Below, piece after piece: positions 7,978 to 49,771 of a DNA stretch of 64,000 bases (position 1 is its first letter; each line of letters starts with the position of its first letter). The stretch is from Fibrobacter sp. UWB4 (GTDB taxonomy: Bacteria > Fibrobacterota > Fibrobacteria > Fibrobacterales > Fibrobacteraceae), in NCBI RefSeq assembly GCF_002210345.1, contig NZ_MWQI01000002.1, forward strand, positions 248,001 through 312,000. The letters are read 5' to 3'. Position numbers and translations under genes: made by a program. The notes beneath the pieces are model-generated. The model did not search any database and was not told the DNA's origin. It saw nothing but the letters and a program-made list of their open reading frames with translations.

Positions 7978-8475
7978 ATGGCTAACGATTTATGCCCGTG
8001 CGGTTCTGGCAAGGCCTACTGCGACTGCTGCGAACCGATTATTAAGAAGACCGCCCTCGCCCCGTCCCCGGAAGCCCTTATGCGCTCCCGCTACACTGCT
8101 TATGCCAAGCACGAAATTGCATGGCTCAAGGATTCCCTCGAAGCCACCCAGCGTGACGACTTTGATGAACCGAGCGTAGAAGCCTGGAGCCGTCAGTCCG
8201 AATGGCTCGGCATCGAAATCAAGCAGACCAAGACCGAAGAAGAAAAGAACATCGGCTGGGTCGAATTTGTCGCCCGCTTCAAGCAGGGCAACATCACTCG
8301 CAACCACCACGAACTTGGCGAATTCCACAAGGTCGGCGGTGCTTGGTACTTCTATGACGGTCGTGCCGTGAAGCAGGAAACTGTCCGCCACGAAGGTCCG
8401 GTTGTCGGCCGTAACGACCCGTGCCCGTGCGGTTCTGGCAAGAAGTACAAGAAGTGCTGCGGCGCTAACAAGTAA
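7978..8475 (+). CDS. YchJ-like protein with two SEC-C zinc motifs
   Basis: A 165-residue protein of the YchJ/UPF0225 type. Cys-rich SEC-C motifs lie at both ends ([13 protein letters not shown] near residue 6 and [13 protein letters not shown] near 150). Each should bind zinc through a CxCx(8)CC pattern. Between them is the NTF2-like core recognised by [13 protein letters not shown] and the GGAWYFYDG strand. The biochemical role of the family is not established; SEC-C zinc fingers are known from SecA. ATG 7978 was chosen because AAGGA lies just upstream; a reading frame extending back to 7801 runs through repeats and lacks family similarity. The stop codon falls inside the first unit of the heptad array. 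Confidence 0.88.
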
Positions 8476-8610
8476 ACAGTAGGAAGTAGGCAGTAGACGG
8501 TAGACAGTATTAATTAGGCGGCTTTGCCGCGATTATAAAACTTCCTACTTCCGACTTCTAACTTCCTACCAATCACTAATCACAAACCACCAACCACTAA
8601 CCACTATCCA
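8471..8610. repeat. Complete heptad element: 20 units filling the ychJ-argC gap
   Basis: From the stop of the SEC-C gene to the ATG of argC the sequence divides exactly into 20 heptamers. Left arm: AGTAAAC (containing the stop TAA), AGTAGGA, AGTAGGC, AGTAGAC, GGTAGAC, AGTATTA. Centre: ATTAGGC, GGCTTTG, CCGCGAT, TATAAAA, which holds a GGCGGC-TTT-GCCGC hairpin. Right arm: CTTCCTA-type units (CTTCCTA, CTTCCGA, CTTCTAA, CTTCCTA), then CTAACCA-type units ending at base 8610. The two arms are roughly complementary, so the whole can fold back. Confidence 0.9.
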
Positions 8611-18412: not shown

Positions 18413-18441
18413 AGTAGGAAGTAGGAAGTAGACAGTAGGAA
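18413..18441. repeat. Heptad array, AGTAGGA type (four units)
   Basis: AGTAGGA, AGTAGGA, AGTAGAC, AGTAGGA in the leader region of the phosphohexomutase gene. No central hairpin, so a half-element. Confidence 0.85.
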
Positions 18442-18472
18442 GAAACGCCTAAAACAAGGGGTTACAATTCTT

Positions 18473-30503: not shown

Positions 30504-31961
30504 ATGAGTGACGCCCTCGAAAAACGCATCAAGAAACACATCATCGGAAAGCCCCATCGCTTTTTAGCCATTTCTCCGCTTGGCTTTGAACAAACGCTTG
30601 CGAGAGAACTTGATTGCATTTTAGGAGAAAGCGCAACAGAACCGTCGCACGTCACTGGAGACGGCAAAGTCGAGTTCACCACAAAACTGACTGAAGCGTG
30701 GAAAGCAGTCGCCGTAAGCCGCATCGCAAACCGCGTACTCATGGAAGTCGCAAGCTTCAAAGCCGAGAACTTCCGCGAACTCGAAAAGAAAGCAAGCGAA
30801 ATCCCGTGGGAACTTTATTTAGACGCCAACGTCATCCCGAGCCGCGCGAGGGATCCAGTAAAGTTCACCAACGCATTAAACATTCACGTCACTTGCAAGC
30901 ATTCCCGTCTGTACCACAGCGACGCCATCGCCGAACGTTTGTATAAAATAATAGAAGAAGGGGTAAGTGTCCCCCTCGCTCCTGCCGACACGGCATCCGC
31001 TACCCCCTCTGCGGGGACACCCCGCAACGCCCCGATGCAAAACGAGAATCGCGGCACACCTCAAAATCTTTACGTCAACTTCCTAGACGACCGCTGCACT
31101 ATCTGGCTAGACCTCGCCGGAGAAGAACTCTACAAGCGCGGCTTTGAACGTTTCGTGAACGATGCCCCGCTCAAAGAAACCATCGCCTCTGCGATGATAT
31201 TCGAAGCATTCCACTTCCTACCGTCTACTTCCTGCTGTCTACTAGATTTAATGTCCGGCAGCGGCACGTTCAGCCTCGAATCCGCCTGCATTGCAAACAA
31301 AATCATTCCCGGCACGTGCCGCGATTTTGCACTCAAGCACCAGCCCGCCTTCAAAGAAGCCACCTGGAATTTTATAACGCGAAGCGTCACCCTGAACGAA
31401 GTGAAATGCAACACATCTACGTTCGTCACCCTGAGTGAAACGAAGGGTCCAGTAAAGTCTTGCAACACATTCGCGACAATCGCAAAAATCATCACGAGCG
31501 ATATTTCCGAACGCGCGGTAAGCATCATCAAGCACAACATCGAATGTAGCCCGCTCGCACAAATCGCGCCGAACGAAAACACGCCCACAATTTCTCCGCA
31601 ACTCCGCGACTTTTTCAGCTACACCGCCAAAGAAATTGTAGACGCCTGCGACGACGCCTCGCCCGTTCTCGTGCTGAACCCACCCTACGGCAAACGCCTT
31701 GATTTCGACGCGCCCAAGCTTTACACGCAAATCGGCAAAAAGCTAACAGAACTCGCCCGCGACTTACGCAATTTGGGCAAATCACTCACAGTCGCCATCC
31801 TCGCTCCGAAAGACGACACCCGCGATGGCGCCAAGTACACCTGCACCGCAAACCTTTTGCGCGAATGCCCCGCCCTTTCAACAGAGATCAACCCAACCGC
31901 CAAAGTCGTCCAAACAAGCCACGGCGGCTTTAGCCTCAACGCCTTCTTTGCAACAATCTAG
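30504..31961 (+). CDS. RlmL-like THUMP/UPF0020 RNA methyltransferase carrying in-frame repeats
   Basis: A 485-residue class I SAM-dependent methyltransferase of the RlmL/UPF0020 type, which makes m2G in 23S rRNA. An N-terminal ferredoxin-like/THUMP part (15-185) precedes the catalytic domain, with SAM motif I LLDLMSGSGTFSLES and motif IV NPPYGKRLDF. The gene is longer than its core needs because it carries in-frame pieces of intergenic repeats: a GGATCCAGTAAAG repeat (30831-30863), a GTGTCCCC...GGGGACAC inverted repeat (30968-31021), heptads (31214-31248) and two GTCACCCTGA repeats (31385-31470). No stop or frameshift results and catalytic motifs remain, so it may still be active. ATG 30504 is chosen. 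Confidence 0.85.
   Translation: MSDALEKRIKKHIIGKPHRFLAISPLGFEQTLARELDCILGESATEPSHVTGDGKVEFTTKLTEAWKAVAVSRIANRVLMEVASFKAENFRELEKKASEIPWELYLDANVIPSRARDPVKFTNALNIHVTCKHSRLYHSDAIAERLYKIIEEGVSVPLAPADTASATPSAGTPRNAPMQNENRGTPQNLYVNFLDDRCTIWLDLAGEELYKRGFERFVNDAPLKETIASAMIFEAFHFLPSTSCCLLDLMSGSGTFSLESACIANKIIPGTCRDFALKHQPAFKEATWNFITRSVTLNEVKCNTSTFVTLSETKGPVKSCNTFATIAKIITSDISERAVSIIKHNIECSPLAQIAPNENTPTISPQLRDFFSYTAKEIVDACDDASPVLVLNPPYGKRLDFDAPKLYTQIGKKLTELARDLRNLGKSLTVAILAPKDDTRDGAKYTCTANLLRECPALSTEINPTAKVVQTSHGGFSLNAFFATI
30831..30863. repeat. Intragenic dispersed repeat (GTCATCCCGAGC...GGATCCAGTAAAG)
   Basis: In-frame copy encoding VIPSRARDPVK. Same family as 9584-9672. Confidence 0.75.
30968..31021. 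repeat. Intragenic inverted repeat (GTGTCCCC...GGGGACAC)
   Basis: Eight-base perfect arms around a 38-bp centre, in frame, encoding a Pro/Ala/Thr/Ser-rich loop (SVPLAPADTASATPSAG). GTGTCCCCCT also occurs (reverse strand) at about 19802. Confidence 0.65.
31214..31248. repeat. Intragenic heptad array (five units)
   Basis: CTTCCTA, CCGTCTA, CTTCCTG, CTGTCTA, CTAGATT. They encode FLPSTSCCLLD, directly before the SAM-binding motif I. Confidence 0.85.
31385..31470. repeat. Intragenic tandem copies of the GTCACCCTGA repeat
   Basis: Two copies (CGTCACCCTGAACGAAG and CGTCACCCTGAGTGAAACG), each followed by TGCAACACAT (31407-31416 and 31461-31470). The second includes GGGTCCAGTAAAGTC. In frame, encoding VTLNEVK and VTLSETKGPVK. 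Confidence 0.75.
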
Positions 31962-35452: not shown

Positions 35453-35500
35453 GACTCGGCAAGATGCGTATTCTTACGATATTGCCGAGTCGCTTTTTTT
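35453..35500 (+). terminator. Terminator of the Nudix gene
   Basis: GACTCGGCAA...TTGCCGAGTC, a 10-bp stem with a 20-base loop, followed by GCTTTTTTT. Confidence 0.82.
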
Positions 35501-35507
35501 ATAAGTG

Positions 35508-35535
35508 GTCAATAGTCATTAGTCAATAGTCATTG
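35508..35535. repeat. Heptad repeat array, GTCATTA type (four units)
   Basis: GTCAATA, GTCATTA, GTCAATA, GTCATTG; the counterpart of 7797-7824. Confidence 0.85.
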
Positions 35536-35585
35536 GCCAAGTGCACACCGCCCGCCATGCAGGAGTTCTCTAGTTTAACCAAAAA

Positions 35586-38343: not shown

Positions 38344-40116
38344 ATGGAGTCTTTGGAATTCACATCCCTGCCGTCCATGTTCTTTGCAAACTGCGACAGG
38401 GCCGCTTTTAAAGGATGGTATCACCGTAAAAACGGTGAGTGGATTCACTATTCCAAAGGAACTCTCAAGCAAAACGTCAAGGCTCTCGCACTTGCCTTAA
38501 ATTCACTCGGTTTAAAAGAAAAAGAAAGCGTCGGCATCATCGCCCCAAGTTCTCCAAACTGGATTATCGCAGACATAGCCATACAAATAAATCACGCTCA
38601 CGTCGTTCCGCTTTTTCCAAACATTTCTTCTGAGAACTTTGAATACCAAAGTCACGATGCCAATATCAAGATCCTAATTATCAATTCCTTTGAAGAACTT
38701 GAAGAGCCTCTTTACGATTTGCTCCCGTCTTTTTCAAAAATCATCTGCATCGACAACGATTCGTTCCTCCCAGCCAATGGAATTTATTGGGAAGACCTGC
38801 TAAAAAAAGGATCCAAACTTCTTGCAGACAAGAACCAATCGGAATGGATCAAAAAGAATATTAAATCCATTCAGCCAGACGATATTTTTAGCATCATTTA
38901 TACAAGCGGTTCTACAGGTCGGCCCAAAGGTGTGGAACTTACACACAGGAACATGTTAGTACAAATTCAAAACATCGCCCCGATGTTCAAGTTTGATACA
39001 AAAAAAGATTCATGCCTCACAATCCTCCCGGTCGCTCACGTTCTCGAGCGCATGGCCGTCTATTTTTACACGCTCAGCGGCGTCACCGTTTACTTTGGCG
39101 ACAATCCCAAGAACCTTTCGCACATCTTGCGTGAAGTTCGACCGACCATCATGATCGTGGTCCCGCGCATTCTCGAGCGCCTTTACGAGAGCATGACAAC
39201 AGCAACAGATCGCGCCAAGGGAATCAAAAGATTCCTAATAAAACACGCTATCAAGATTGCAAAAATCAAAGAACCCAATAAGCGCTTCGATCCTCTTTAT
39301 TGGCTATTCAATAAGCTCGTCTATAAGAAAATGCGTGAAGCCGTCGGAGGCAACTTCCGCATGATTATTTCGGGTAGCAGTTCTCTCAACAAATCTATTT
39401 TACGATTCCTTTTGAACATCGGGCTACCCGTTTTTGAAGGCTATGGCATGACGGAATGTTCGCCCGTCGTTTCTGCAAACTGCCCAAAAGCGATAAAGCC
39501 CGGTTCAATAGGCAAGCCTCTGCCCCATCTCGAAGTCCGAATCGGGAAATGCAACGAAATCCAAGTCCGTGGTGAAAGCGTTTTTAAAGGATACCACAAT
39601 CGCCCCGACTTGAACGCCAACATATTCACAGAAGACGGTTTTTACCATTCTGGAGACCAAGGCTATTTCGACGATGACGGATTCCTTTATTTTACAGGTC
39701 GCATCAAAGAACTCCTCAAGACAAGTACCGGCAAATACGTTAGCCCCAACCCCATCGAACTCGAAATCATCCGCCACCCGCTTGTAGAACAGGCGCTCGT
39801 CATCGCAAATGACCGTAAGTTCGCCTCGGCCATTATCTGGCTGAACCCTGTAGGCGCCCGCCGCATGCTCAAGCCGCAAAACGAAGATTACGATGTAGAA
39901 AATGCGCTAAAGTCACCACTTGTCCGCGATGCCATCAATCGCCACATCGAACATGTCAACGAAAAGTTGAATCATTGGGAACAAATTCGCAAGTGGACTC
40001 TGGTCGGTGACGAACTCACAATTGAATCGGGTCTCTTGACCCCCACATTAAAAATTCGGCGCACCGTTGCTGAAAAACGATACGCCGAACAAATTGAAAA
40101 GATGTATCAACAGTAA
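38344..40116 (+). CDS. Long-chain acyl-CoA synthetase (AMP-forming)
   Basis: A 590-residue ANL-superfamily ligase that activates fatty acids with ATP and CoA. Motifs: P-loop-like YTSGSTGRPKGVELTH, A5 YGMTECSPVVSAN, A7 SGDQGYFDDDGFLYFTGR and the C-terminal KELLKTSTGKYVSP region; the pattern is that of eukaryote-like long-chain ligases (FAA/FadD15 type). Role: recycling or incorporating exogenous or volatile fatty acids into lipid, by inference. ATG 38344 starts the family-like MESLEFTSLPSMFF; the frame open back to 38125 crosses a GC inverted repeat. Its stop codon TAA lies inside the first heptad of the element at 40112. Confidence 0.9.
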   Translation: MESLEFTSLPSMFFANCDRAAFKGWYHRKNGEWIHYSKGTLKQNVKALALALNSLGLKEKESVGIIAPSSPNWIIADIAIQINHAHVVPLFPNISSENFEYQSHDANIKILIINSFEELEEPLYDLLPSFSKIICIDNDSFLPANGIYWEDLLKKGSKLLADKNQSEWIKKNIKSIQPDDIFSIIYTSGSTGRPKGVELTHRNMLVQIQNIAPMFKFDTKKDSCLTILPVAHVLERMAVYFYTLSGVTVYFGDNPKNLSHILREVRPTIMIVVPRILERLYESMTTATDRAKGIKRFLIKHAIKIAKIKEPNKRFDPLYWLFNKLVYKKMREAVGGNFRMIISGSSSLNKSILRFLLNIGLPVFEGYGMTECSPVVSANCPKAIKPGSIGKPLPHLEVRIGKCNEIQVRGESVFKGYHNRPDLNANIFTEDGFYHSGDQGYFDDDGFLYFTGRIKELLKTSTGKYVSPNPIELEIIRHPLVEQALVIANDRKFASAIIWLNPVGARRMLKPQNEDYDVENALKSPLVRDAINRHIEHVNEKLNHWEQIRKWTLVGDELTIESGLLTPTLKIRRTVAEKRYAEQIEKMYQQ

Positions 40117-40207
40117 GAAGTTAGCAGTAGGAAGTCGGAAGTTAAATAATCGCAGCGAAGCTGCCTAACTTAACAACTTCCTACCGTCTACTGTCTACTG
40201 CCTACTA
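40112..40207. repeat. Complete heptad element between convergent genes
   Basis: Left arm AGTAAGA (holds the acyl-CoA synthetase stop), AGTTAGC, AGTAGGA, AGTCGGA, AGTTAAA; centre TAATCGCAGCGAAGCTGCC; right arm in CTTCCTA, CCGTCTA, CTGTCTA, CTGCCTA phase, ending in the serA stop codon (TAG on the minus strand). Both convergent genes thus end inside the element. The centre matches ATAATCGCGGC...GCCGCC of the other two complete copies in reverse orientation. Confidence 0.88.
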
Positions 40208-41371: not shown

Positions 41372-41490
41372 TTTTCATTCCTTTGTTTAAGTTAAAAAGT
41401 AACAAGTAGGAAGTTAGAAGTAGGAAGTTGAATAATCGCGGCTTCGCCGCCAAATTTATTCTGTCTACTTCCTACTGTCTACCGTCTACT
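41372..41490. repeat. Complete heptad element: 17 units between ispG and serA
   Basis: Minus strand, beginning three bases after the ispG stop: AGTAGAC, GGTAGAC, AGTAGGA, AGTAGAC, AGAATAA, ATTTGGC, GGCGAAG, CCGCGAT, TATTCAA, CTTCCTA, CTTCTAA, CTTCCTA, CTTGTTA, CTTTTTA, ACTTAAA, CAAAGGA, ATGAAAA, then the serA ATG. That is 119 bp, exactly 17 heptads; the serA ribosome site (AAAGGA) is itself within one unit. The centre aligns unit by unit with that of 8471-8610. Confidence 0.9.
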
Positions 41491-49560: not shown

Positions 49561-49597
49561 GCAAAAATGCAATTTGGACTCATATATAGTAAAATTA

Positions 49598-49625
49598 GTT
49601 ACTAGTTACTAGTTAGTAGTTACTA
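49598..49625. repeat. Heptad repeat array, GTTACTA type (four units)
   Basis: GTTACTA, GTTACTA, GTTAGTA, GTTACTA. Related units occur at 12769 and 28662. Confidence 0.85.
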
Positions 49626-49771
49626 GAGATGCTACGAAAAAGCACCTAAAAAAGGGGGGATGGGCTATGGGGTCGGTCGCCTACGGCTCCCTTTGGGGTA
49701 TGGGCTATGAGCTATACCTCAAAGCGAAGCGTGCTCAAAGCACCGCAGGTGCGTGCTCATACCTCAAAGCC

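Follow-up and report, generated by a model that had tools for sequence, protein, structure and literature searches.

The gap upstream of serA contains one copy of a dispersed palindromic element. This element probably belongs to a repeat family of the genus Fibrobacter, a non-coding palindrome that behaves as a hitchhiker of the REP or MITE type and whose polarity may be due to selection. As we picture it, a member of the family would be a palindrome of about 93-98 bp with 4-5 unspaced AGTNNNN units, a hairpin of the form TTTGGCGGC-NNN-GCCGCGATTAT, and an inverted arm. A first-pass annotation of the window (the whole 64-kb stretch of DNA that was analyzed) had argued for a defined element instead of random slippage. 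This view is upheld by the conserved unit order and core, by dispersed copies, by empty orthologous sites, and by compensatory changes in the core.

Structure and limits of the element upstream of serA

The gap between ispG and serA, on the minus strand, contains 7-bp periodic arms that flank a GC hairpin. (The gene names ispG and serA are those of the first-pass annotation.) In the sense of serA, the left part of the gap is AGTAGAC GGTAGAC AGTAGGA AGTAGAC AGAATAA ATTTG-GCGGC-GAA-GCCGC-GATTATTCAA, and the right part continues with CTTCCTA CTTCTAA CTTCCTA CTTGTTACTT, then TTTAACTTAAACAAAGGAATGAAAA, and then the ATG. AGT recurs at 7-bp steps in the left arm, which the right arm mirrors in inverted form. 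The element extends over about 41397-41490 (minus strand) and consists of an arm with four 7-bp units and one transition unit, the GC hairpin, and the inverted arm (Table 1). Its RNA is predicted to fold into one long hairpin (-33.4 kcal/mol, z = -5.2); the folding z-scores of the three copies in the window are -5.2, -2.2, and -4.2.

The element had been described as 119 bp, or 17 x 7, that end exactly at the start codon of serA, with the ribosome-binding site as one of the heptad units. Neither part of this description holds. The last ~25 bp before serA (TTTTAACTTAAACAAAGGAATGAAAA) are nearly identical in species that lack the element (L031 and L033), and element-free alleles such as those of G045 and G046 read ...GGAACCGTAAAAGTTTTAACTTAAAACAAAGGAATGAAAAATG before serA. 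Because element-free species carry them, these about 25 bp, including the ribosome-binding site, belong to the native leader. Also, the gap is 125 bp long in four of the six species that carry the element, versus 122 bp here. That a 17-fold multiple of 7 ends at the ATG of serA is a coincidence.

Table 1. Positions of the copies of the element and of other heptad arms in the window
Feature	Position	Strand	Evidence
5' arm of the serA-upstream element: AGTAGAC GGTAGAC AGTAGGA AGTAGAC and transition unit AGAATAA	41456..41490	-	Same order in L038, L039, L042, L044, L045
Core hairpin GCGGC-GAA-GCCGC of the serA-upstream element	41438..41450	-	Exact core pattern in 58/80 genus genomes
3' (inverted) arm TCAACTTCCTACTTCTAACTTCCTACTTGTTACTT of the serA-upstream element	41397..41434	-	Right boundary deduced from empty alleles
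Native serA leader with ribosome-binding site (AAAGGA), outside the element	41372..41396	-	Found in empty alleles L031, L033
Second copy, 3' end of serA, convergent gap; core GCAGC-TTC-GCTGC; serA stop codon TAG forms the first triplet	40111..40207	-	Orthologous alleles compared
Copy between the gene ending at 8475 and argC; core GCGGC-TTT-GCCGC at 8518-8530	8471..8565	+	Genome match, core scan
ACT-side arm of a separate heptad family (AGTGGTT/AGTGATT in reverse complement), between the copy at 8471..8565 and argC	8566..8610	+	
Heptad arm, AGTAGGC/AGTAGAC family, precedes a start codon	20064..20120	-	
Heptad arm, AGTAGGA family, within a called ORF	31208..31243	-	
Heptad arm, AGTCATT family; orthologous gap empty in G046	35495..35551	+	
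Heptad arm, AGTTACT family	49580..49638	+	
Heptad array AGTAGGA, about 4 units	18413..18442	+	

Copies in the window, the genome, and the genus

The copies upstream of serA and argC align unit for unit, as the first-pass annotation had noticed. The ungapped alignment, at a 7-bp offset, has 81/119 identities (the best ungapped background alignments reach a mean of 0.36 and a maximum of 0.45), and the argC copy is found as a gapless match when the genome is searched with the serA element (78% over 87 bp, E = 6e-14). The argC copy had been drawn as 8471-8610, but it stops short of the argC start codon: 8566-8610 is the ACT-side arm of the other heptad family (AGTGGTT/AGTGATT) and separates the copy from argC. 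Within that arm, at 8571-8584, AATCACTAATCACA comprises two unspaced units that fit WATCACW, the consensus of omega parS (shuffle expectation 0.00).

Further copies, on which the original proposal depended, are present both in this genome and in its relatives. With the serA element as the query, its own genome gives 12 matches (at another locus, the identity reaches 90% over 87 bp), and at least one match occurs in 65 of the 80 genomes from the genus. In the heptad scan, records named Fibrobacter predominate and have loci in common with this genome, and on that basis we take the genus to be Fibrobacter. Counts of first-look candidates for the serA element vary enormously within the genus, from 0 to 225 per genome (G000-G079). 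Of the 80 genus genomes, 58 have the exact core pattern, as compared to 2 of 88 genomes from elsewhere in the phylum; a reversed control gave 0. All matches to the core consensus GGCGGCNNNGCCGCGATTAT (up to 2 mismatches) have flanking heptad arms, and the arms around this shared core fall into several families (AGTAGGA, AGTYATT, TAGGTTA, and GACGAGA). AGTAGGA, AGTAGAC, and AGTTACT are the dominant units, with wide variation in unit sequence both within and between elements. According to a simple home-made gene caller, 75 of 79 heptad arms lie outside called genes.

Period 7 also dominates more broadly. In 456 kb of the genome, there are 50 periodic segments at lag 7, 22 at lag 14, and 20 at lag 21, as compared to at most 9 at each other lag from 2 to 20; a caveat is that these 456 kb are 20 stretches picked around matches, which inflates the density (the 64-kb window was not so picked). 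The AGT-N4 spacing is specific to period 7. Genome-wide, AGTAGGAAGTAGGA (at most 1 mismatch) occurs 134 times, versus 1 control match.

At the gathering score, Rfam matches only a tRNA within the window and nothing in the ispG-serA region. Searching the open-access literature for the exact heptad strings gave no relevant paper, and a term search of the F. succinogenes S85 genome paper (PMC3079729) turned up no discussion of such repeats.

Orthologous gaps are filled, empty, or replaced

We classified the ispG-serA gap by eye in 30 species. Six have this element, nine have elements with other heptads (2 TAGGTTA, 3 GACGAAA, 2 GAGGTAT, 1 AGTGGTT, and 1 GAATTGA), three have unrelated palindromes, and 12 are empty. 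With a bare gap in 12 of 30 relatives, the element is not tied to serA. The other palindromic repeats, in L034, L049, and L055, read TCATCCTGAG... and ATTCCGGGTC...CCGGAATGACG. Because they occupy the same gap, the ispG-serA gap seems to be a general landing place. There is similar turnover at the serA 3' gap and at the argC gap, and empty and alternative alleles occur at further gaps too.

The copies upstream of serA are 93-99% identical across species, as compared to 77-89% for the 3' ends of ispG and 88-95% for the 5' ends of serA. The last 400 bp of ispG are 98-100% identical between filled G007 and empty G045, after which the two differ by the element. To place the six carriers, 5 changes are required on the tree of ispG and 6 on that of serA; for these trees, extraction was poor for two ispG rows, and many forks have weak support. 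As judged from these alignments and trees, an element that is more alike than its flanking genes and that recurs on the trees supports horizontal movement. Some of the recurrence might come from repeated loss, or from recombination of the flanks, instead of repeated gain, and strong selection on the element, with many losses, could in principle also account for the 93-99% identity. We rejected recombination of a long tract that carries serA along with the element: serA from G007 resembles filled and empty alleles to about the same degree, and a donor tract is not visible. The adjacent ispG and serA trees disagree between species (L029-L058; for instance, G007 and G052), apparently pointing to frequent recombination in the genus.

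Comparing filled and empty pairs gave no consistent target-site duplication: there is a 0-2 bp overlap in the cleanest pairs, but the identity of the flanks is only about 80-98%. The serA 3' alleles hinted at a TA duplication with TAG...CTA ends, but this failed in other filled/empty pairs.

Arms, unit number, and local slippage

According to the first-pass annotation, the stem is preserved despite differences in the hairpin loop. This holds for the core and was not seen for the arms. Arms pair better with their own partners than with arms drawn from all elements (-26.1 vs. -20.1, permutation p = 0.0003), but they do no better than arms swapped within one heptad family (family A, p = 0.85, n = 16; family B, p = 0.31, n = 13), where a weakness is that families were assigned by simple motif rules. 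Because swaps within a family pair equally well, we conclude that arms are matched at the level of the heptad family and that single substitutions carry no sign of compensation; unit-by-unit compensation in the arms is rejected.

Local slippage with fold-back template switching is another conceivable origin, although we think it unlikely. A 7-bp step would fit the grip of the polymerase, the folded strand would be copied into the inverted arm, and the palindrome would arise anew in each gap. Arms that match by family and not base by base are what this predicts, and different heptad families do occupy the same gap. Work cited in PMC4692102 describes an excess of heptamers in many bacteria and proposes slippage of the polymerase. 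Arrays in other phyla also fit: next to (AGTAGGA)3, an ACT-type partner lies downstream at 12/63 loci and upstream at 0, so that only the convergent order is seen. But an identical core and a non-repetitive order of units at dispersed loci are not a product of local expansion, and alleles at one site are nearly identical between diverged species. Arm length is narrow instead of broadly variable: most arms (63 of 79) consist of 4 or 5 units. If the elements are a repeat family, then slippage may tune the number of units, while the dispersed copies would not have been created by it.

We considered G-quadruplexes as the reason for four-unit arms and rejected them: the 49 arms with at most two GG units also peak at four (27/49). 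Very long, near-perfect heptad arrays occur in Prevotellaceae, Planctomycetaceae, and Calothrix (L106, L112, and L134), as compared to 4-5 units in the Fibrobacter arms.

Polarity relative to genes

Among the 75 arms that could be assigned to the nearer gene end, 62 follow one rule: in the coding sense, AGT units come after a stop codon and ACT units come before a start codon. (A sign test gives 8e-9, a value that is too small because the two arms of a pair are not independent.) The stop codon at the 3' end of serA is TAG in 13/13 element-bearing alleles, as compared to 4/17 alleles without a heptad element (p = 2e-5). Similarly, in a sample of the genome, TAG terminates 14 of the 26 genes that an AGT arm abuts, versus 85 of about 330 other genes (p = 0.006).

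Related preferences are reported elsewhere. The heptamers of Xanthomonas and Nostoc prefer to have the G-rich strand downstream of ORFs or antisense upstream (Rehm et al., PMC4692102), and in Beggiatoaceae, TAACTGA repeats (ACT-N4-ACT in the sense direction) lie just upstream of start codons (MacGregor, PMC4679880). This polarity, common to unrelated bacteria, is the most interesting result.

Selection could explain the polarity if the elements are hitchhikers. They might move between cells through DNA transfer and recombination, or with the help of an unknown enzyme, and would be tolerated only in gaps. Before a start codon, the AGGA motifs of the purine-rich AGT strand would mimic ribosome-binding sites and be selected against; after a stop codon, the C-rich, G-poor strand could load Rho and would also be selected against. 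Because of these two effects, an arm would survive only in the harmless orientation.

A broader idea is that palindromes with heptad arms form a widespread class of mobile DNA, and that an unknown enzyme whose footprint is 7 bp moves or maintains them. We are doubtful of it. If it were true, then the polarity and convergent order that distant phyla share would be the signature of that enzyme, and Fibrobacter would be the first genus in which such a defined element is documented together with its core, its empty sites, and its horizontal spread.

The core hairpin and gene ends

In contrast to the arms, the core does show compensatory changes, which the first-pass annotation had suggested testing in the GC stem. 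The core stems GCGGC, GCAGC, GCTGC, and GCGCC each occur with the matching partner, so there are several compensatory types. At the orthologous serA 3' site, the stem is GCAGC/GCTGC in three species and GCTGC/GCAGC in two, around an unchanged loop, which is a compensatory double change.

These changes and the stable predicted folds might suggest a functional RNA hairpin, selected at gene ends as a bidirectional transcript end or as an mRNA-stabilizing structure. The location of the arms agrees with this: 24 of 42 stop-side arms are within 10 nt of the stop codon, and arms are enriched in tandem and convergent gaps. Still, we consider a selected RNA hairpin improbable. There is no U-tract after the stem (GATTATTCAAC or GATTATAAAAC comes next instead), and a scan with a loose terminator consensus flags only GATTATTTAA / CAAATTTATT tails. 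At the serA 3' site, several element-free relatives carry an ordinary hairpin and T-run instead. The arms are not maintained pair by pair, and element-free gaps are common. For a hitchhiking palindrome, RNA from either direction can be expected to fold as a long hairpin and may mark or shield mRNA ends, which we would regard as a by-product unless shown otherwise.

Relation to known repeats and candidate enzymes

Our best reading is that the element is a REP/MITE-like, non-autonomous intergenic palindrome of the known class of heptamer repeats. Like the repeats of Xanthomonas (GGGAATC) and Nostoc (GGGGAYT), it has unspaced, degenerate 7-bp units, is intergenic, and shows the same polarity (PMC4692102). 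In Xanthomonas, four units are the most frequent number and many arrays are convergent inverted pairs (PMC4692102); in Nostoc, few inverted pairs are reported. What differs in Fibrobacter is that the arms are joined by a conserved GC core hairpin, which several families share. The TAACTGA repeats of Beggiatoaceae (PMC4679880) have the same ACT-N4-ACT grammar upstream of starts and the same patchy distribution across phyla, but they have a single heptad in essentially direct repeats, and a shared palindromic core is unreported. Intergenic tandem heptanucleotides are also known in cyanobacteria, as STRR and as the Calothrix heptamers cited in PMC4692102. Calothrix, Okeania, and Pleurocapsales have (AGTAGGA)3 arrays. 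More broadly, these arrays (L059-L138) come from Cyanobacteria, Aminicenantes, Sulfurovum, Bacteroidota, Acidobacteria, Nitrospinota, Elusimicrobia, Shewanella, and others. To our knowledge, STRR have no arm-core-arm architecture.

REP and BIME elements are similarly dispersed intergenic palindromes that are non-coding, form mosaic combinations, and vary in occupancy between species. A conserved tetranucleotide at the foot of the hairpin, GTAG or GGAG, is a defining feature of REP. In Fibrobacter, there is no such conserved tetranucleotide (the foot is mostly TTTG, TTAG, or TCAG), no RAYT (REP-associated Y1 transposase) was seen in the genome, and heptad arms replace the REP arrays.

Heptameric repeats have been seen in many bacteria without an account of the number seven, the preferred number of units, or the orientation. 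Fibrobacter is a tractable case, with a defined element, related complete genomes, and filled, empty, and replaced alleles at orthologous gaps. These alleles make the origin of the element (mobile element, slippage, or protein footprint) and its effect on neighboring genes testable.

By analogy with the ribbon-helix-helix protein omega (a ParB) of plasmid pSM19035, whose parS is also made of unspaced heptads and needs at least 4 contiguous ones for full activity (PMC9499535), the element might be a nucleoid or regulatory landing pad under selection, bound by an oligomeric protein with a 7-bp footprint. In line with this, the heptads are unspaced, most arms have 4-5 of them, and the serA 5' copy is strongly conserved, but the idea is very improbable given the high variability of the units within and between elements and the 12/30 orthologous gaps that lack the element. 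The omega consensus fits only the minority unit AGTGATT, with one double match in the window, and a search for Omega_Repress homologues gave matches in 0/80 genomes, with control genomes likewise giving no match.

As for enzymes that might act on a REP-like family, neither an associated enzyme nor a candidate for an autonomous partner with the same ends was identified, and the analysis turned up no function for the element; we rejected three ideas. RAYT-driven movement is not supported because the only Y1 transposase in the genome is IS200-like and unrelated. Templating of heptads by a reverse transcriptase was dismissed, as RVT_1 was not detected in this element-rich genome. Loss of the palindrome nuclease SbcCD does not explain the elements either: SbcD is present in both heptad-rich and heptad-poor species and is nearly universal in the genus. 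The two Y1_Tnp matches are identical 162-codon frames in a 719-bp IS200-like copy, from which heptads are absent. Two identical IS200-like copies (L218 and L219; the identical stretch is 719 bp) each lie right after a terminator-like hairpin.
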